Part shown: in pieces, positions 18,194 through 29,150 of the stretch
How positions within the stretch are numbered: the stretch's first letter is position 1
Layout of the letters: the number at the start of each line of letters is the position of its first letter
From: an uncultured Clostridia bacterium
Lineage (GTDB): Bacteria > Bacillota > Clostridia > Lachnospirales > Anaerotignaceae
Direction: 5' to 3'
Length of the DNA stretch: 64,000 bases
NCBI GenBank assembly: GCA_945868505.1
Contig: CAMBLO010000009.1
Coordinates: forward strand, 1-64,000
Notes under the pieces: model-generated
Told to the model about the DNA's origin: nothing
The model's database searches: none
What the model saw: the letters and a program-made list of their open reading frames with translations, nothing else
Translations under genes and position numbers: made by a program

Positions 18194-18460
18194 AAAAAAA
18201 GTCCAGTCCACATATTTCTATGGGACAAGACTCAAATATCCTGCGGTACCACCCAAATTGATGAAAAATCATCCGCTCTCTTCACTGTACAGCCATACAG
18301 TCACGCTCTGGTAACGGGTGCGTTCCCCGTCGGCTTCTACTTGCTTTCGCTTTCGGCCGCCCTCATAAGTCCATTCACCTGACCTCCTGCTGTTGTGTTT
18401 CCACCATCCACAACTCTCTGTAAGCTGATTTGAAAGGCTACTCCTCTTAATCACTGGTTT
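18194..18460 (-). promoter_or_regulatory. T-box riboswitch leader, tryptophan specifier
   Basis: On the minus strand the leader has a long Stem I, the T-box core GGGTGGTACCGC (18254-18243), and a terminator with a 10-bp stem and seven T (18232-18194). In the specifier loop GTGAA-TGG-ACTT the triplet at 18373-18371 is UGG, the tryptophan codon. Uncharged tRNA-Trp should stabilise the antiterminator and turn on the importer. Specifier placement is by eye but the sequence context is standard. Confidence 0.85.
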
Positions 18461-18478
18461 CTCTCTTTGGATATATTG

Positions 18479-19931: not shown

Positions 19932-21422
19932 TTAAAGCTCTACAATTTTCCCGGCGATTTTTTCACAAAATACGGCGTCATGCTCCACGAAAAGTAATGT
20001 GGGTCTATATTCTTGTAACAAACCTTCTATCTGCATTCGAGAAAACACATCTATATAGTTCAACGGCTCGTCCCAGATATACAGATGGGCTTCTTCGCAA
20101 AGGCTGCGAGCAATAAGGACCTTTTTCTTCTGCCCATCGCTGAAATCCTCCATCTTTTTATCAAATTGTTCTCGGGAAAAGCCCAGTTTTCGCAGTATCG
20201 CCTTGAACAGGCTTTCGTCAATGGCATATTCCTCTGCATAATCCCGTAAATCTCCTTGCAATCCATCGGTTTTCTGGGGCACATAAGAAATTTTCAGGCC
20301 TGTTGCCTTGCGAAATTCCCCTGTCGCATCCATTTCTTCCCCCAGAATCAGCTTCAAAATTGTAGACTTGCCACAGCCATTTTTCCCCCGCAGAGCCACT
20401 TGCTCCCCTGCTTCAATCTCGAAGGAAACACCCTGACAGGCGACCTTTTCGCCATACCGCACAGAAACCTCCTTCAGATAGACCAAAGGGCTTTGGCGGG
20501 CCGTTAAAGGAGACAGCTTCAAATCATCGGCGGTATCGATATTCCGCAGCAAGGAGGTTTTTTCCGCAAGGGCTGTTTCCTGCCGCCGCTCCAGATTTTT
20601 GGAACGGCGCATCATCTTTTCCGCTTTGTGCCCGATATAGCCCTTATCCACCTTTACACCTGCATCTCTGGGGGTTCGCCTGTCGGCGTTTTTCATTTTT
20701 TCCACCTGCTCCGACCAGCGGGAGGCTTGCTTCGCCGCCTTTTCCAACCGCTTAATATCCTTTCTCAGCTTCTCATTTTCGGAAAACTCATAGGCATCCT
20801 GTCTGTCCTTGTTTTCCTTCCAAGAGGAGAAATTTCCCCGCTGCACTTCAATATTACTACGGTTGATGGCAAGCACATGGTCAATACATTCATCCAACAG
20901 GATTCTATCGTGGGAAACCAAAATAAAGCCCTTTTTCTGCTGTAAATATTTGCTGATGGCCTTTCTTCCCTCCAAATCCAAATGGTTTGTCGGTTCATCG
21001 ATGAGCAGAAAGGCGTGTTCCTTCAAAAACAACGCAGCCAGTAAGACTTTTCCCTGCTCCCCATCGGAAAGGGTATCAAAGGGGCGCCAAAGGGCTTCCT
21101 CGTCCACATCGATTCTGGAAACTTCCTTGACGATTTCCCAATCCTCTGCATAGGGGCAGATTTCCCGCAGGATATCTATGGTGAGCCAATCCTTCCGCTC
21201 CACCTCATAAGGAAAATAGACAAAATCCATATCTGCGGAAATGGTGCCGCTGTATTCATACTGCCCCATCAGCAACTTTAGAAAGGTGGTCTTTCCCCTT
21301 CCGTTTCTACCGATGAGCCCCAGCTTCCAATCCGTATCCAAACGAAAGCTGACATCTTCAAAAATATTATCGTAACTGCCCTCATAGGCAAAGGTTACAT
21401 CTGTGACTTGAATATAAGACAT
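19932..21422 (-). CDS. ABC-F ribosomal protection protein, Lsa-like
   Basis: The 496-residue protein has two ABC domains and no membrane segments. Domain 1 has GRNGRGKTT, LSDGEQGK and LLIDEPTNHLD. Domain 2 has GKNGCGKST, FSDGQKKK and IWDEPLNYID. The linker contains NRSNIEVQRGNFSSW and DKGYIGHKAEKMMRRSKN, which I recognise from the Lsa family. Those proteins displace lincosamides, streptogramin A and pleuromutilins from the ribosome. The resistance spectrum cannot be read from sequence. The gene has a long leader with a terminator and short ORFs, a pattern known for induced ABC-F genes. The ATG follows AAGGAGG. Confidence 0.88.
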   Translation of the reverse strand: MSYIQVTDVTFAYEGSYDNIFEDVSFRLDTDWKLGLIGRNGRGKTTFLKLLMGQYEYSGTISADMDFVYFPYEVERKDWLTIDILREICPYAEDWEIVKEVSRIDVDEEALWRPFDTLSDGEQGKVLLAALFLKEHAFLLIDEPTNHLDLEGRKAISKYLQQKKGFILVSHDRILLDECIDHVLAINRSNIEVQRGNFSSWKENKDRQDAYEFSENEKLRKDIKRLEKAAKQASRWSEQVEKMKNADRRTPRDAGVKVDKGYIGHKAEKMMRRSKNLERRQETALAEKTSLLRNIDTADDLKLSPLTARQSPLVYLKEVSVRYGEKVACQGVSFEIEAGEQVALRGKNGCGKSTILKLILGEEMDATGEFRKATGLKISYVPQKTDGLQGDLRDYAEEYAIDESLFKAILRKLGFSREQFDKKMEDFSDGQKKKVLIARSLCEEAHLYIWDEPLNYIDVFSRMQIEGLLQEYRPTLLFVEHDAVFCEKIAGKIVEL

Positions 21423-21456
21423 ACTGGTTTTTCCTCCTTATTTTTGCAAAATAGAA

Positions 21457-21486
21457 AAGCCACAGGAAAACAAATTCCTATGGCTT
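21457..21486 (-). terminator. Attenuator hairpin in the ABC-F leader
   Basis: On the minus strand AAGCCATAGGAA pairs with TTCCTGTGGCTT (11 Watson-Crick pairs, one A-C mismatch, six-base loop), followed by CTTTTCTATTTT. It ends about 35 bases before the ABC-F start codon and within its own leader, so it should reduce readthrough unless an alternative fold forms. Confidence 0.7.
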
Positions 21487-21512
21487 ATAAACGCATACCA
21501 AAACAGACAAAG

Positions 21513-21626
21513 CTATCTTATATTCTTTGATGGGATAAGCTGTAAGAGTTTCTCGTTTTCCTGCTGCGGGCATGACAAAGAAACAAAGGCCGAAACACTT
21601 TGTACAGATAATCGCTTCTTTTTCAT
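21513..21626 (-). CDS. Candidate leader peptide 2 (37 residues) upstream of the ABC-F gene
   Basis: The frame starts at ATG 21626, begins MKKKRLSVQ and ends LLQLIPSKNIR, with a TAG at 21515-21513. Its stop lies 27 bases before the attenuator hairpin, where stalled or slow ribosomes could alter folding. The ribosome binding site is weak. It may be a true leader peptide or a chance frame. Confidence 0.45.
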   Translation of the reverse strand: MKKKRLSVQSVSAFVSLSCPQQENEKLLQLIPSKNIR

Positions 21627-21639
21627 ACCGATTCAAAAA

Positions 21640-21660
21640 TTAGCAAGAAAACTGGAACAT
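21640..21660 (-). CDS. Candidate leader peptide 1 (MFQFSC)
   Basis: This six-codon frame starts with ATG at 21660 and ends with TAA, preceded by TAGGAG at good spacing. It lies about 45 bases after the promoter -10 element. Very short leader ORFs of this kind sense ribosome-targeting antibiotics upstream of several resistance genes. Confidence 0.45.
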   Translation of the reverse strand: MFQFSC

Positions 21661-21705
21661 CTTTTCAACTCCTATCATTTTGTAATACTACATTTCATTA
21701 CAGAA

Positions 21706-21734
21706 AGTATAGCACGAAAAATTGCCAGATACAA
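21706..21734 (-). promoter_or_regulatory. Promoter of the ABC-F leader transcript
   Basis: TTGTAT and TATACT on the minus strand with a 17-base spacer, starting at the stop codon of the upstream aminopeptidase gene. The leader is about 280 bases long. Confidence 0.65.
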
Positions 21735-22856
21735 TCATTTTGAAAGTAATTCTTCCTTGAATTTCCCATTTTCATAGAACAATTCCCCATCGGCATAGAT
21801 TCTGCCCTCTTTGGTCATATCGTTAATCATATCCCAATGGATAGCTGATTCATTTTTACCACCCGCTTCCTGAAAGGCTTCGCCGATAGCCATGTGCATG
21901 GAACCGCCGATTTTTTCATCGAACAGGATATTTTTCGTATGGCGCTGAATGCCGTAATTGGTGCCGATGGCAACCTCGCCGAAATAACGGGAGCCTGCAT
22001 CCGTATCAATATAGGAAAGGAGAGTATCCAGCATTTCTCCATTTTTGCAGGAAACATCCACGATACGTCCCTTTTCCGCAGTCAGGCGCACTTCATAAAA
22101 TTCATTGCCATTCATAATGGAAGGATAGGAAAATGTAATGTAGCCGTCAATGCCATCCTCCACAGGAGAAGTAAAGATTTCCCCATCAGGGAAGTTTTCA
22201 TTGCCGCAGCAGTTAATCCACTTTCTGCCGTCAATCTTCACCCGAATATCTGTATCCTTGGAAAGGATATGCAGTTCCTTTTTCCCATCCAGATAATTCA
22301 CCCATTTTTCCTGCCATGCCGCCATTTCTTCCCACTTTGCCACAGGGTCGGCTTCGTAGAGGAAGCCTGCGGCATAGACAAAATCTTCGTATTCTTCCAG
22401 ACTCATACCTGCGTTTTGGGCATCACCATTTGTGGGGAATTGGGTACCGCACCAACGCAACTCTCCTGTGCCCATGCGTTCAGAATAGGCTTTGCGGTTT
22501 TCTCTGTTGGCCAGACGTCTTTGCTTCAGCCGTTCCCCATCAATGGATTGCATGGTCTTTGTGTTTTCGCTGCCCCATGCGCTGAGCCAAACATCACTTC
22601 TTGCACAGGCACCGAAACGGATATTTTCCCGGGCATACTGTTCTTCCGTGCCGTTTTTCAAAATTTCCGCATCCACATCGGGAATATCCACATAATATTC
22701 TACCAATGCGCCCTTTTTCACCGCCGCTCTCGCTACAGCCTTGATAAAAGGCAATGCGGCATCCTCTGCGGAAATGGCAACACGGTCGCCCTTTTTCACC
22801 TTTGTAGAATAATTTACCAGCACATCTGCCAGCTTTTCCAATCTTTCGTCTCTCAT
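21735..22856 (-). CDS. M29-family aminopeptidase
   Basis: The 373-residue cytoplasmic metallo-aminopeptidase is of the AmpS/PepS/thermophilic M29 type. Typical blocks are NENFPDGEIFTSPVEDG, GEVAIGTN, GGSMHMAIGEAF and SAIHWDMI, which carry the two-metal ligands (Glu, His, Asp). It removes N-terminal residues from peptides. Its start is 10 bases after the stop of the isochorismatase-like gene, so the two form an operon. The length is slightly below the common 400-410 residues, with no obvious missing motif. Confidence 0.9.
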   Translation of the reverse strand: MRDERLEKLADVLVNYSTKVKKGDRVAISAEDAALPFIKAVARAAVKKGALVEYYVDIPDVDAEILKNGTEEQYARENIRFGACARSDVWLSAWGSENTKTMQSIDGERLKQRRLANRENRKAYSERMGTGELRWCGTQFPTNGDAQNAGMSLEEYEDFVYAAGFLYEADPVAKWEEMAAWQEKWVNYLDGKKELHILSKDTDIRVKIDGRKWINCCGNENFPDGEIFTSPVEDGIDGYITFSYPSIMNGNEFYEVRLTAEKGRIVDVSCKNGEMLDTLLSYIDTDAGSRYFGEVAIGTNYGIQRHTKNILFDEKIGGSMHMAIGEAFQEAGGKNESAIHWDMINDMTKEGRIYADGELFYENGKFKEELLSK

Positions 22857-27373: not shown

Positions 27374-27384
27374 TATATTCGTGA

Positions 27385-27609
27385 AAAAACAATGACAGGG
27401 AATAGTAAAAAAGCCCCTTGCCCCCAGAAAATAGGCGGTAGATGCGAGCCTTGGCAAGCCTTTTTGAACCTGCCCCTCGAGTTCCGCAGGGAAAATGCGG
27501 CGTAGTTCGGCGTTAACGAGTCCGAGAGGATGATAGCTTTATCATCAATAAGGGTGGCACCGCCGAATGACCTTGGTCCCTTTTGTATGGGGACGAAGGC
27601 TTTTTTTTC
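27385..27609 (+). promoter_or_regulatory. T-box riboswitch leader, proline specifier
   Basis: The T-box core AGGGTGGCACCGCC is at 27551-27564. It is followed by a terminator pairing CCTTGGTCCC with GGGGACGAAGG and eight T (27571-27609). In Stem I the candidate specifier is CCT (27469-27471) in TTGAA-CCT-GCC, a proline codon, which agrees with the downstream prolyl-tRNA synthetase gene. Confidence 0.88.
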
Positions 27610-27615
27610 GCCTTC

Positions 27616-27683
27616 TTGAGGGCTTTGCCCTCAAACTCCCACAAGGAGCTCAGCCCCTGCCAGGGTGTGGGACAGCGTCCCAC
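27616..27683. repeat. Two small perfect hairpins between T-box and proS
   Basis: TTGAGGGC-TTT-GCCCTCAA (27616-27634) and GTGGGAC-AGC-GTCCCAC (27667-27683). Neither has a T-run, so neither is a standard terminator. They resemble the hairpins at 690-923 and 29194-29364. Confidence 0.7.
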
Positions 27684-27713
27684 GGTCTTAGATTTTTTAA
27701 GGAGGAATACAAA

Positions 27714-29150
27714 ATGGCAAAAGAAAAGAAATTTGTAGAATCCATCACCGATATGGAAGTGGATTTTCCCCAGTGGTATACTGACGTTGTAAAAAAAGCT
27801 GACCTGACAGAATATTCCAGCCTGAAGGGCTGCATGATTATCCGTCCCTACGGCTATGCCATCTGGGAACTGATTCAGAAAAACTTGGACGAACGTTTCA
27901 AAGAAACAGGCGTAGAAAACGTTTATATGCCCATGTTCATCCCCGAAAGCCTGCTGCAGAAGGAAAAAGACCATGTAGAAGGCTTTGCGCCCGAAGTAGC
28001 TTGGGTTACTCACGGCGGTGAAAAGAAGCTAGAAGAACGCATCTGCGTTCGCCCCACTTCTGAAACACTGTTCTGCGAACATTACGCAAACATCATCCAG
28101 TCCTACCGTGACCTGCCGAAGCTGTATAACCAGTGGTGTTCCGTTGTTCGTTGGGAAAAAACAACCCGTCCCTTCCTGAGAACCATGGAATTCCTGTGGC
28201 AGGAAGGCCATACAGCCCATGCAACAGCAGAAGAAGCCCAGGAAAGAACCATCCAGATGCTGAACGTATATGCGGATTTCTGCCGTGAAGTACTGGCAAT
28301 CCCCGTAGTCAAAGGCGAAAAAACAGAAAAGGAGCGTTTCGCCGGTGCAGCTCATACATTCACAATCGAATCCCTGATGCACGATGGCAAGGCTCTGCAG
28401 TCCGGTACCAGCCACAACTTTGGTGATGGCTTTGCTCAGGCTTTTGGCATCCAATATACAGATAAAGAAAATAAACTGCAGTATGTTCACCAGACAAGCT
28501 GGGGCATGACAACCCGCCTGATCGGTGCTGTTATCATGGTTCATGGCGACAACAGCGGTCTGGTACTGCCTCCCAGAATCGCTCCTACACAGGTGATTAT
28601 CGTTCCCATCGCTCAGAAAAAAGAAGGCGTACTGGATAAGGCTGCAGAACTGAAAAACAGACTGAACAAGGTTTGCCGTGTGAAACTGGATGATTCCGAT
28701 AAATCCGCTGGCTGGAAATTCTCCGAATATGAAATGAAAGGCGTTCCTATCCGTCTGGAAATCGGCCCCAAGGATATCGAACAGAACCAGTGCGTGCTGG
28801 CAAGAAGAGACACAGGCGAAAAGATCTTCGTTTCTCTGGATGAATTGGAAACAAAGGTGCCCGAACTGCTGGATGAAATTCAGGCAAACCTGTTGAAAAA
28901 GGCAACAGAACATCGTGATTCCAGAACATACACAGCAACAAACATGGAAGAATTCGAAAAGACCATCAACGAAACCCCCGGCTTCATCAAAGCTATGTGG
29001 TGCGGCGATCAGGCTTGTGAAGATGCCATCAAAGAAAAAACAGCAGCAACCAGCAGATGTATTCCCTTTGAACAGGAAGAAATCAGCGATACCTGCGTAT
29101 GCTGCGGCAAAAAAGCAAAACACATGGTATATTGGGGCAGAGCATATTAA
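27714..29150 (+). CDS. proS: Prolyl-tRNA synthetase, archaeal/eukaryotic-like type
   Basis: The 478-residue enzyme starts at ATG 27714 behind AAGGAGG. It is the short class II form without the bacterial editing insertion. Class II motifs are visible in the [18 protein letters not shown] region and in [17 protein letters not shown]. The C-terminal zinc-type region contains [19 protein letters not shown]. It charges tRNA-Pro with proline. Expression is probably limited by the upstream T-box. Confidence 0.95.

Follow-up and report, generated by a model that had tools for sequence, protein, structure and literature searches.

The question raised by this locus is what the leader in front of an Lsa-like ABC-F ribosome-protection gene does, and whether the short peptide encoded in it is read as a peptide or as RNA. 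The locus lies in a window of 64,000 nucleotides (the whole stretch that was analysed) from contig CAMBLO010000009.1 of an uncultured Clostridia bacterium. The original prediction placed two leader ORFs and a terminator between a good promoter and the gene, the layout of attenuators in which antibiotics stall the ribosome. Judging from sequence comparison and predicted folds, the leader is very probably an attenuator of the VmlR type, in which ribosomes control transcription. The protein encoded behind it scores 745.7 bits against the NCBIfam model ABCF_Lsa_all (NF000167), just under the curated cut-off of 750, and is therefore named Lsa-like; it passes ribo_prot_ABC_F (NF000355) with 491.2 bits at a curated cut-off of 380. 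Tblastn identities of the protein are 59.7% with plasmid lsa(E) and 57.7% with lsa(B). The gene and its leader, with promoter, uORF and terminator, are all on the minus strand (Table 1). An M29-type peptidase gene upstream of the leader ends at 21735, and the promoter starts directly behind its stop. Elsewhere in the window, T-box leaders were found at 18218-18463 on the minus strand (113.7 bits) and at 27383-27584 on the plus strand (112.2 bits), the latter shortly before a large frame on the plus strand (27567-29150).

Table 1. Features of the ABC-F gene and its leader, in window positions
Feature	Position	Strand	Details
Promoter	21706..21734	minus	TTGTAT (21734-21729), 17-nt spacer, extended -10 TGcTATACT (21714-21706); read by eye
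Shine-Dalgarno AGGAG of uORF	21669..21673	minus	8 nt upstream of ATG
Six-codon uORF MFQFSC, stop included	21640..21660	minus	ATG at 21660, stop ends at 21640
Segment 1	21643..21652	minus	GTTTTCTTGC; end of codon 3 plus codons 4-6 of uORF; predicted anti-antiterminator core, 5' strand
Internal hairpin	21569..21629	minus	GGTATGA / TCATGCC plus inner stem, ends in U-rich run; predicted folds
Segment 2	21555..21564	minus	GCAGGAAAAC; two alternative partners, segment 1 and terminator 3' arm
Whole predicted anti-antiterminator hairpin	21537..21671	minus	MFE of window leader; also absorbs uORF Shine-Dalgarno/start region
37-codon frame, judged not a gene	21513..21626	minus	no Shine-Dalgarno, not conserved
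Intrinsic terminator hairpin	21457..21486	minus	arms 21486-21475 and 21468-21457; 12-bp stem, U-rich tail
Lsa-like ABC-F ribosome-protection gene	19932..21422	minus	496 aa

The leader parts anticipated in the original prediction are largely present. The six-codon ORF with its good ribosome binding site was confirmed, as was the terminator hairpin shortly before the resistance-type gene, whose stem lies 34 nt from the ABC-F ATG (21422). The promoter is promoter-like by eye, with transcription likely starting around 21699, but it is off-consensus: a consensus scan (9-of-12 threshold) reported none in the leader because this sequence reaches 8 of 12 matches, with the TG extension in addition. The terminator alone is within chance (1 found against 1.1 expected in shuffles); the window leader as a whole folds with a z of -4.18, which none of 200 shuffles equalled. 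Taken on its own, the window sequence is suggestive only of an attenuator, and the case is lifted above chance because the leader is conserved among relatives. At the gathering threshold, no RNA family described in Rfam was matched by the window leader or by eight leader loci.

Homologues were collected from 60 relatives, of which 18 genomes gave a match at E <= 1e-120 (19 loci), and from named genome contigs (31 loci). Peptides such as MIQFSC, MINFSC, MFKLSC, MIIISC, MSTISC, MYNFSC and MRNFSC take the place of MFQFSC in many of their leaders. Whole genomes were searched with a covariance model, R1, built from 22 sequences of the early part of the leader. With the window genome included each time, it matched 59 of the 392 genomes searched in the order (E <= 0.01) and, at E <= 0.001, 36 of 391 in the class and 25 of 398 in the phylum. 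The matching genomes span 40 families, counted by family codes, and yield 118 distinct leader places, of which 117 were examined and one, in G214, was left out. An ABC-F start follows the leader in all 117. For 114 this was established by an automatic rule (the first residues of the query encoded no more than 560 nt from the leader start), and at L125, L127 and L086 the Lsa-like start was seen by eye, two of these being broken soon after. The part of the original prediction that is supported is the attenuator layout, with ribosome control of transcription and a conserved first uORF before an Lsa-like ABC-F gene.

Several loci depart from this pattern. At L125 and L127 intact leaders precede ABC-F genes that end after a few dozen codons, possibly pseudogenes or assembly joins. 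At L110 (genome G742, contig C12), one of the 114, a leader with MIIFSCK stands before an ABC-F gene of another type, 26% identical to that of the window, with best NCBIfam scores of 308 (Msr), 302 (CplR) and 419 (ribo_prot_ABC_F, the last above its cut-off), suggesting that the switch may have moved between ABC-F genes. The leader is not universal, since the model scores 28 bits or more at 13 of the 19 loci from the 60-relative search and does not reach this score at L016, L018, L019, L020, L023 and L025 despite their Lsa-like genes. L025 and L023 carry look-alike uORFs although they fall below this threshold. At L019, segment 2 and the terminator are present upstream of the ABC-F gene and the uORF half is missing, which is perhaps a decayed or rearranged switch. 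A second, weak match in the genome of the window itself (L174, E 0.086) was dropped, as no ABC-F gene lies behind it. For the comparisons below, only leaders less than 80% identical to any already kept were retained, which reduced 128 to 99; L174 and the partial match L166 were left out.

The core of the proposed switch is a helix between segment 1 and segment 2, which are about 95 nt apart in the window. When 22 leaders were aligned without regard to structure, 90.0% of the segment 1:2 pairs were standard compared to 84.3% after shuffling that ignores relatedness, with 18 cells changed on both sides compared to 5.0, a value reached in none of 500 shuffles. Shifting the alignment by 1-3 columns lowers the pairing to 48-64%, and RNAalifold proposes the identical helix unaided. 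When segment 2 was reassigned among the 99 leaders, relatedness being ignored, pairing with the own segment amounted to 88.9% versus 84.8% (sd 0.5) and both-side changes to 53 versus 24 (sd 4), neither being equalled in 1000 reassignments. Counting the pairs that show any both-side change gives 6, which is unremarkable in this set: 53 of the 1000 reassignments reached it. Pairing of segment 2 with the terminator loop and 3' arm (21474-21459 in the window), the antiterminator, was first noted in 16 leaders and then in the 99, where the helix scores 22.2 with the leader's own arm, compared to 18.6 (sd 0.27; relatedness ignored) with the arms of other leaders and 12.3 with letter-shuffled arms. 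Comparison thus supports both helices of a mutually exclusive set of anti-antiterminator, antiterminator and terminator. The region between segments 1 and 2 is also more stably folded than its shuffled versions (mean z -3.2 in the 99 leaders). The internal hairpin located there in the window is a possible pause hairpin. The motif TTNTTT, looked for as the mark of a NusG-type pause hairpin, is only mildly enriched before segment 2 (48 of 99 leaders compared to 31 expected).

Predicted folding is consistent with a switch operated by a ribosome at the start codon. In Bacillus subtilis vmlR, a 30S subunit on the start codon gives a toeprint at +16 (PMC9226507). The MFE structure of the free window leader combines anti-antiterminator and terminator, and changes to the antiterminator when positions -15 to +16 of the start codon, the ribosome footprint, are barred from pairing; the lsa(E) leader flips likewise. 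Among the 99 leaders, the unmasked MFE contains the segment 1:2 helix in 98, the terminator in 91 and the segment 2:4 helix in none, while under the mask the segment 2:4 helix is gained in 34 and the terminator kept in 56. Equilibrium folding as modelled here therefore predicts the switch outright in one third of the leaders, and in the remainder it would have to depend on the kinetics of folding.

In the proposed mechanism, ribosomes would, without drug, complete the six-codon uORF and depart, leaving codons 4-6 (segment 1) free to pair with segment 2. With this anti-antiterminator formed, the terminator would form in turn and transcription would halt ahead of the ABC-F gene. With a drug that arrests ribosomes within the first codons, one would stop on the uORF with its footprint covering segment 1, and the released segment 2 would then pair with the terminator 3' arm, allowing RNA polymerase to read through. 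Polymerase pausing in the leader may accompany these steps. Since codons 4-6 appear to be constrained by RNA pairing, expression should be turned on whenever a ribosome, for whatever reason, is halted within the first codons, as happens in the known VmlR leader. According to two reports (PMC9226507, PMC12421871), the codons at which pleuromutilins, lincosamides and streptogramin A arrest ribosomes are mostly the first ones. The same three classes would be the expected inducers for an Lsa-type gene. Macrolides let such short peptides be completed.

Among the alternatives, peptide-specific arrest fares best, even though we regard it as unlikely: the nascent MxxFSC would itself sense the drug in the exit tunnel, like ErmCL or MsrDL, and a sensor of peptide sequence was also implied by the original prediction. 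The hexapeptide pattern is indeed strongly conserved. uORFs of 6-8 codons of the MFQFSC type are present in 87 of the 99 leaders, the most frequent peptides being MRNFSC (7), MINFSC (5) and MYNFSC (4), and codons 2-3 favour I, R, Y, F or K and then N with no evident RNA reason; for this preference, often I or R followed by N, pairing alone is no full explanation. However, conservation in codons 4-6 extends to synonymous sites. In the 86 aligned uORFs, codon 4 is TTT in 48, ATT in 15, ACT in 8, CTT in 8, TTA in 3 and four others once each, with TTC absent; codon 5 is TCT in 72 and TCC in 8, with no other Ser codon; codon 6 is TGC in 82 and TGT in 2. The corresponding sites of codons 2-3 are free (Phe at codon 2, TTT 6 and TTC 4; Asn at codon 3, AAT 20 and AAC 19). 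Furthermore, MYSFIR and MIGFSRR retain the pairs even though Ser-Cys or Cys is replaced.

The length of the uORF argues in the same direction. It is six codons in 65 of the 99 leaders, seven in 18, eight in 4, three in 4 and two in 8, and never longer. Counted from the start codon, segment 1 ends at +18 in 86 leaders (range 15-23 in all), and the 12 leaders whose uORFs stop after 2-3 codons (MK, MR, MRN, MKL, MRK, MCI) keep segment 1, poorly in L167, with its end at 18-23. One of these, L111 (MCI), may have a mis-called start, as an upstream GTG would give MHMISC. On a tree of the ABC-F proteins behind 91 of the 99 leaders, made by a quick method with many open forks and a very long L110 branch, parsimony requires 9 changes to account for the short uORFs, and well-supported branches force no fewer than 4 of these. 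Amino-acid conservation independent of RNA pairing, the mark of an arrest peptide, was not found across the 99 leaders. Frozen synonymous sites, peptide changes that keep the pairing and uORFs of 2-3 codons together indicate that the position of the ribosome is read and not the peptide. The conserved xxFSC would therefore reflect mainly RNA, MxxFSC being kept chiefly as a helix strand, and the implied peptide sensor is not upheld.

Slightly less probable still is that control is mainly translational, with the leader governing access to the ABC-F Shine-Dalgarno sequence and not termination. In the window, the U tract after the terminator can pair weakly (-7.5 kcal/mol) with the Shine-Dalgarno region of the gene, and a fourth hairpin of vmlR does likewise (PMC9226507). 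Against this, the terminator with its U tract lies upstream of the Shine-Dalgarno sequence, a median of 31 nt from the start in the 99 leaders (by a permissive picker with some mis-picks), and the conserved positions are those of the attenuator segments. An amino-acid attenuator, in which the Ser-Cys codons would sense cysteine or serine starvation, is very improbable. Cys occupies codon 6 in 84 of the 86 aligned uORFs, and uORFs with Cys codons have been proposed for cysS in other systems (PMC8632094). However, there is a single Cys codon, which neither the 2-3-codon uORFs nor MYSFIR and MIGFSRR contain, and the downstream gene is an ABC-F gene at each of the 117 examined places. Two leader ORFs in series, with the 37-codon ORF of the original prediction as the second, can practically be dismissed, since this frame, open in the window, has no Shine-Dalgarno sequence, starts within the stem of the internal hairpin in the predicted fold and is cut short in an 87%-identical relative, so that it was dropped as a leader gene. 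Unrelated ATG frames of at least 30 codons occur in 30 of the 99 leaders, none with an SD-like sequence. The check on conservation of both peptides in homologues, once run, thus found the pattern of the first uORF kept and the 37-codon frame not.

The preferred reading, a VmlR-type transcription attenuator, has parallels in known systems. As the leader is described for vmlR of B. subtilis (uORF MIN), the uORF likewise lies inside an anti-antiterminator, followed by a downstream hairpin and an intrinsic terminator, the gene is an ABC-F gene of the pleuromutilin/lincosamide/streptogramin A type, and stalling at the start codon is expected; unlike there, the uORF here is usually 6-8 codons long with its last codons forming the anti-antiterminator strand, the sequence is another one and the genes are Lsa-like (PMC9226507). 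The Clostridioides difficile cplR leader (uORF MR[I/M]) also combines a short uORF sequestered in a 5' hairpin, a terminator and an ABC-F gene, but in the account of that leader its terminator stem also hides the Shine-Dalgarno sequence of the gene, whereas here the terminator ends about 31-34 nt before the start (PMC10201436). The lsa(A) leader shares an Lsa gene and a very short uORF, which differs in sequence (consensus MAGN by uORF4u; PMC10201436). Antibiotic-induced read-through of a leader terminator is known for Listeria lmo0919 and hflXr, the latter with a dissimilar uORF of 14 codons with RLR (PMC6310831), and for Streptomyces are5sc and tiaA, with other uORFs (MLV and MVGDDDISG; PMC12421871). 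The short uORFs MK, MR, MRN and MKL found here resemble MIN of vmlR, MR[I/M] of cplR and MK[L/Q] of vmlR2 as given there (PMC10201436, PMC9226507). Searches of the open-access full-text literature found no description of this leader. By sequence comparison, it is a genuine attenuator, conserved and VmlR-like, which belongs to a known kind but in its present form did not turn up in those searches.

The same leader, with MYNFSC, precedes the plasmid gene lsa(E) of Enterococcus faecalis (L176; 98.6 bits, E 2.5e-17), differing in that its terminator and gene are separated by an additional open frame. The 270-nt lsa(E) leader occurs in 107 plasmid records, 106 of them at >=99% identity (Enterococcus 102, Listeria 3, Lysinibacillus 1, Staphylococcus 1), and in one Streptococcus suis phage record. 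No model match was obtained at a vga(A) plasmid locus, nor at lsa(B), which has another leader, and a Paenibacillus urinalis plasmid gene gave a weak match (21.4 bits) with no start codon in the usual place. On balance, we favour with moderate confidence the view that one homologous, position-sensing RNA switch controls Lsa-type resistance in some 40 families of the phylum, that the hexapeptide is the shadow of a helix, and that the switch has travelled with lsa(E) to plasmids of Enterococcus, Listeria and Staphylococcus, where this clinical gene would be drug-inducible. The covariance model makes searchable, family-wide, how Lsa-type ABC-F resistance, including mobile lsa(E), probably stays silent until the drug arrives. 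It also calls for caution, as conservation of a leader peptide does not by itself imply arrest by that peptide and the codon conservation seen here appears to be mostly base pairing; the natural 2-3-codon variants offer a direct test between a peptide and an RNA reading.

Upstream of the ABC-F start, some loci carry a leader ORF of another kind, characterised by a D-T/V..TH motif (for example MSNSDTIVTHVILRISR in L033). It lies behind a hexapeptide-type attenuator in L028, L092, L099 and L100, and occurs without one in L032, L033 and lsa(B) (L177). In L032 and lsa(B) a predicted hairpin covers the Shine-Dalgarno sequence of the gene, as in a translation attenuator.
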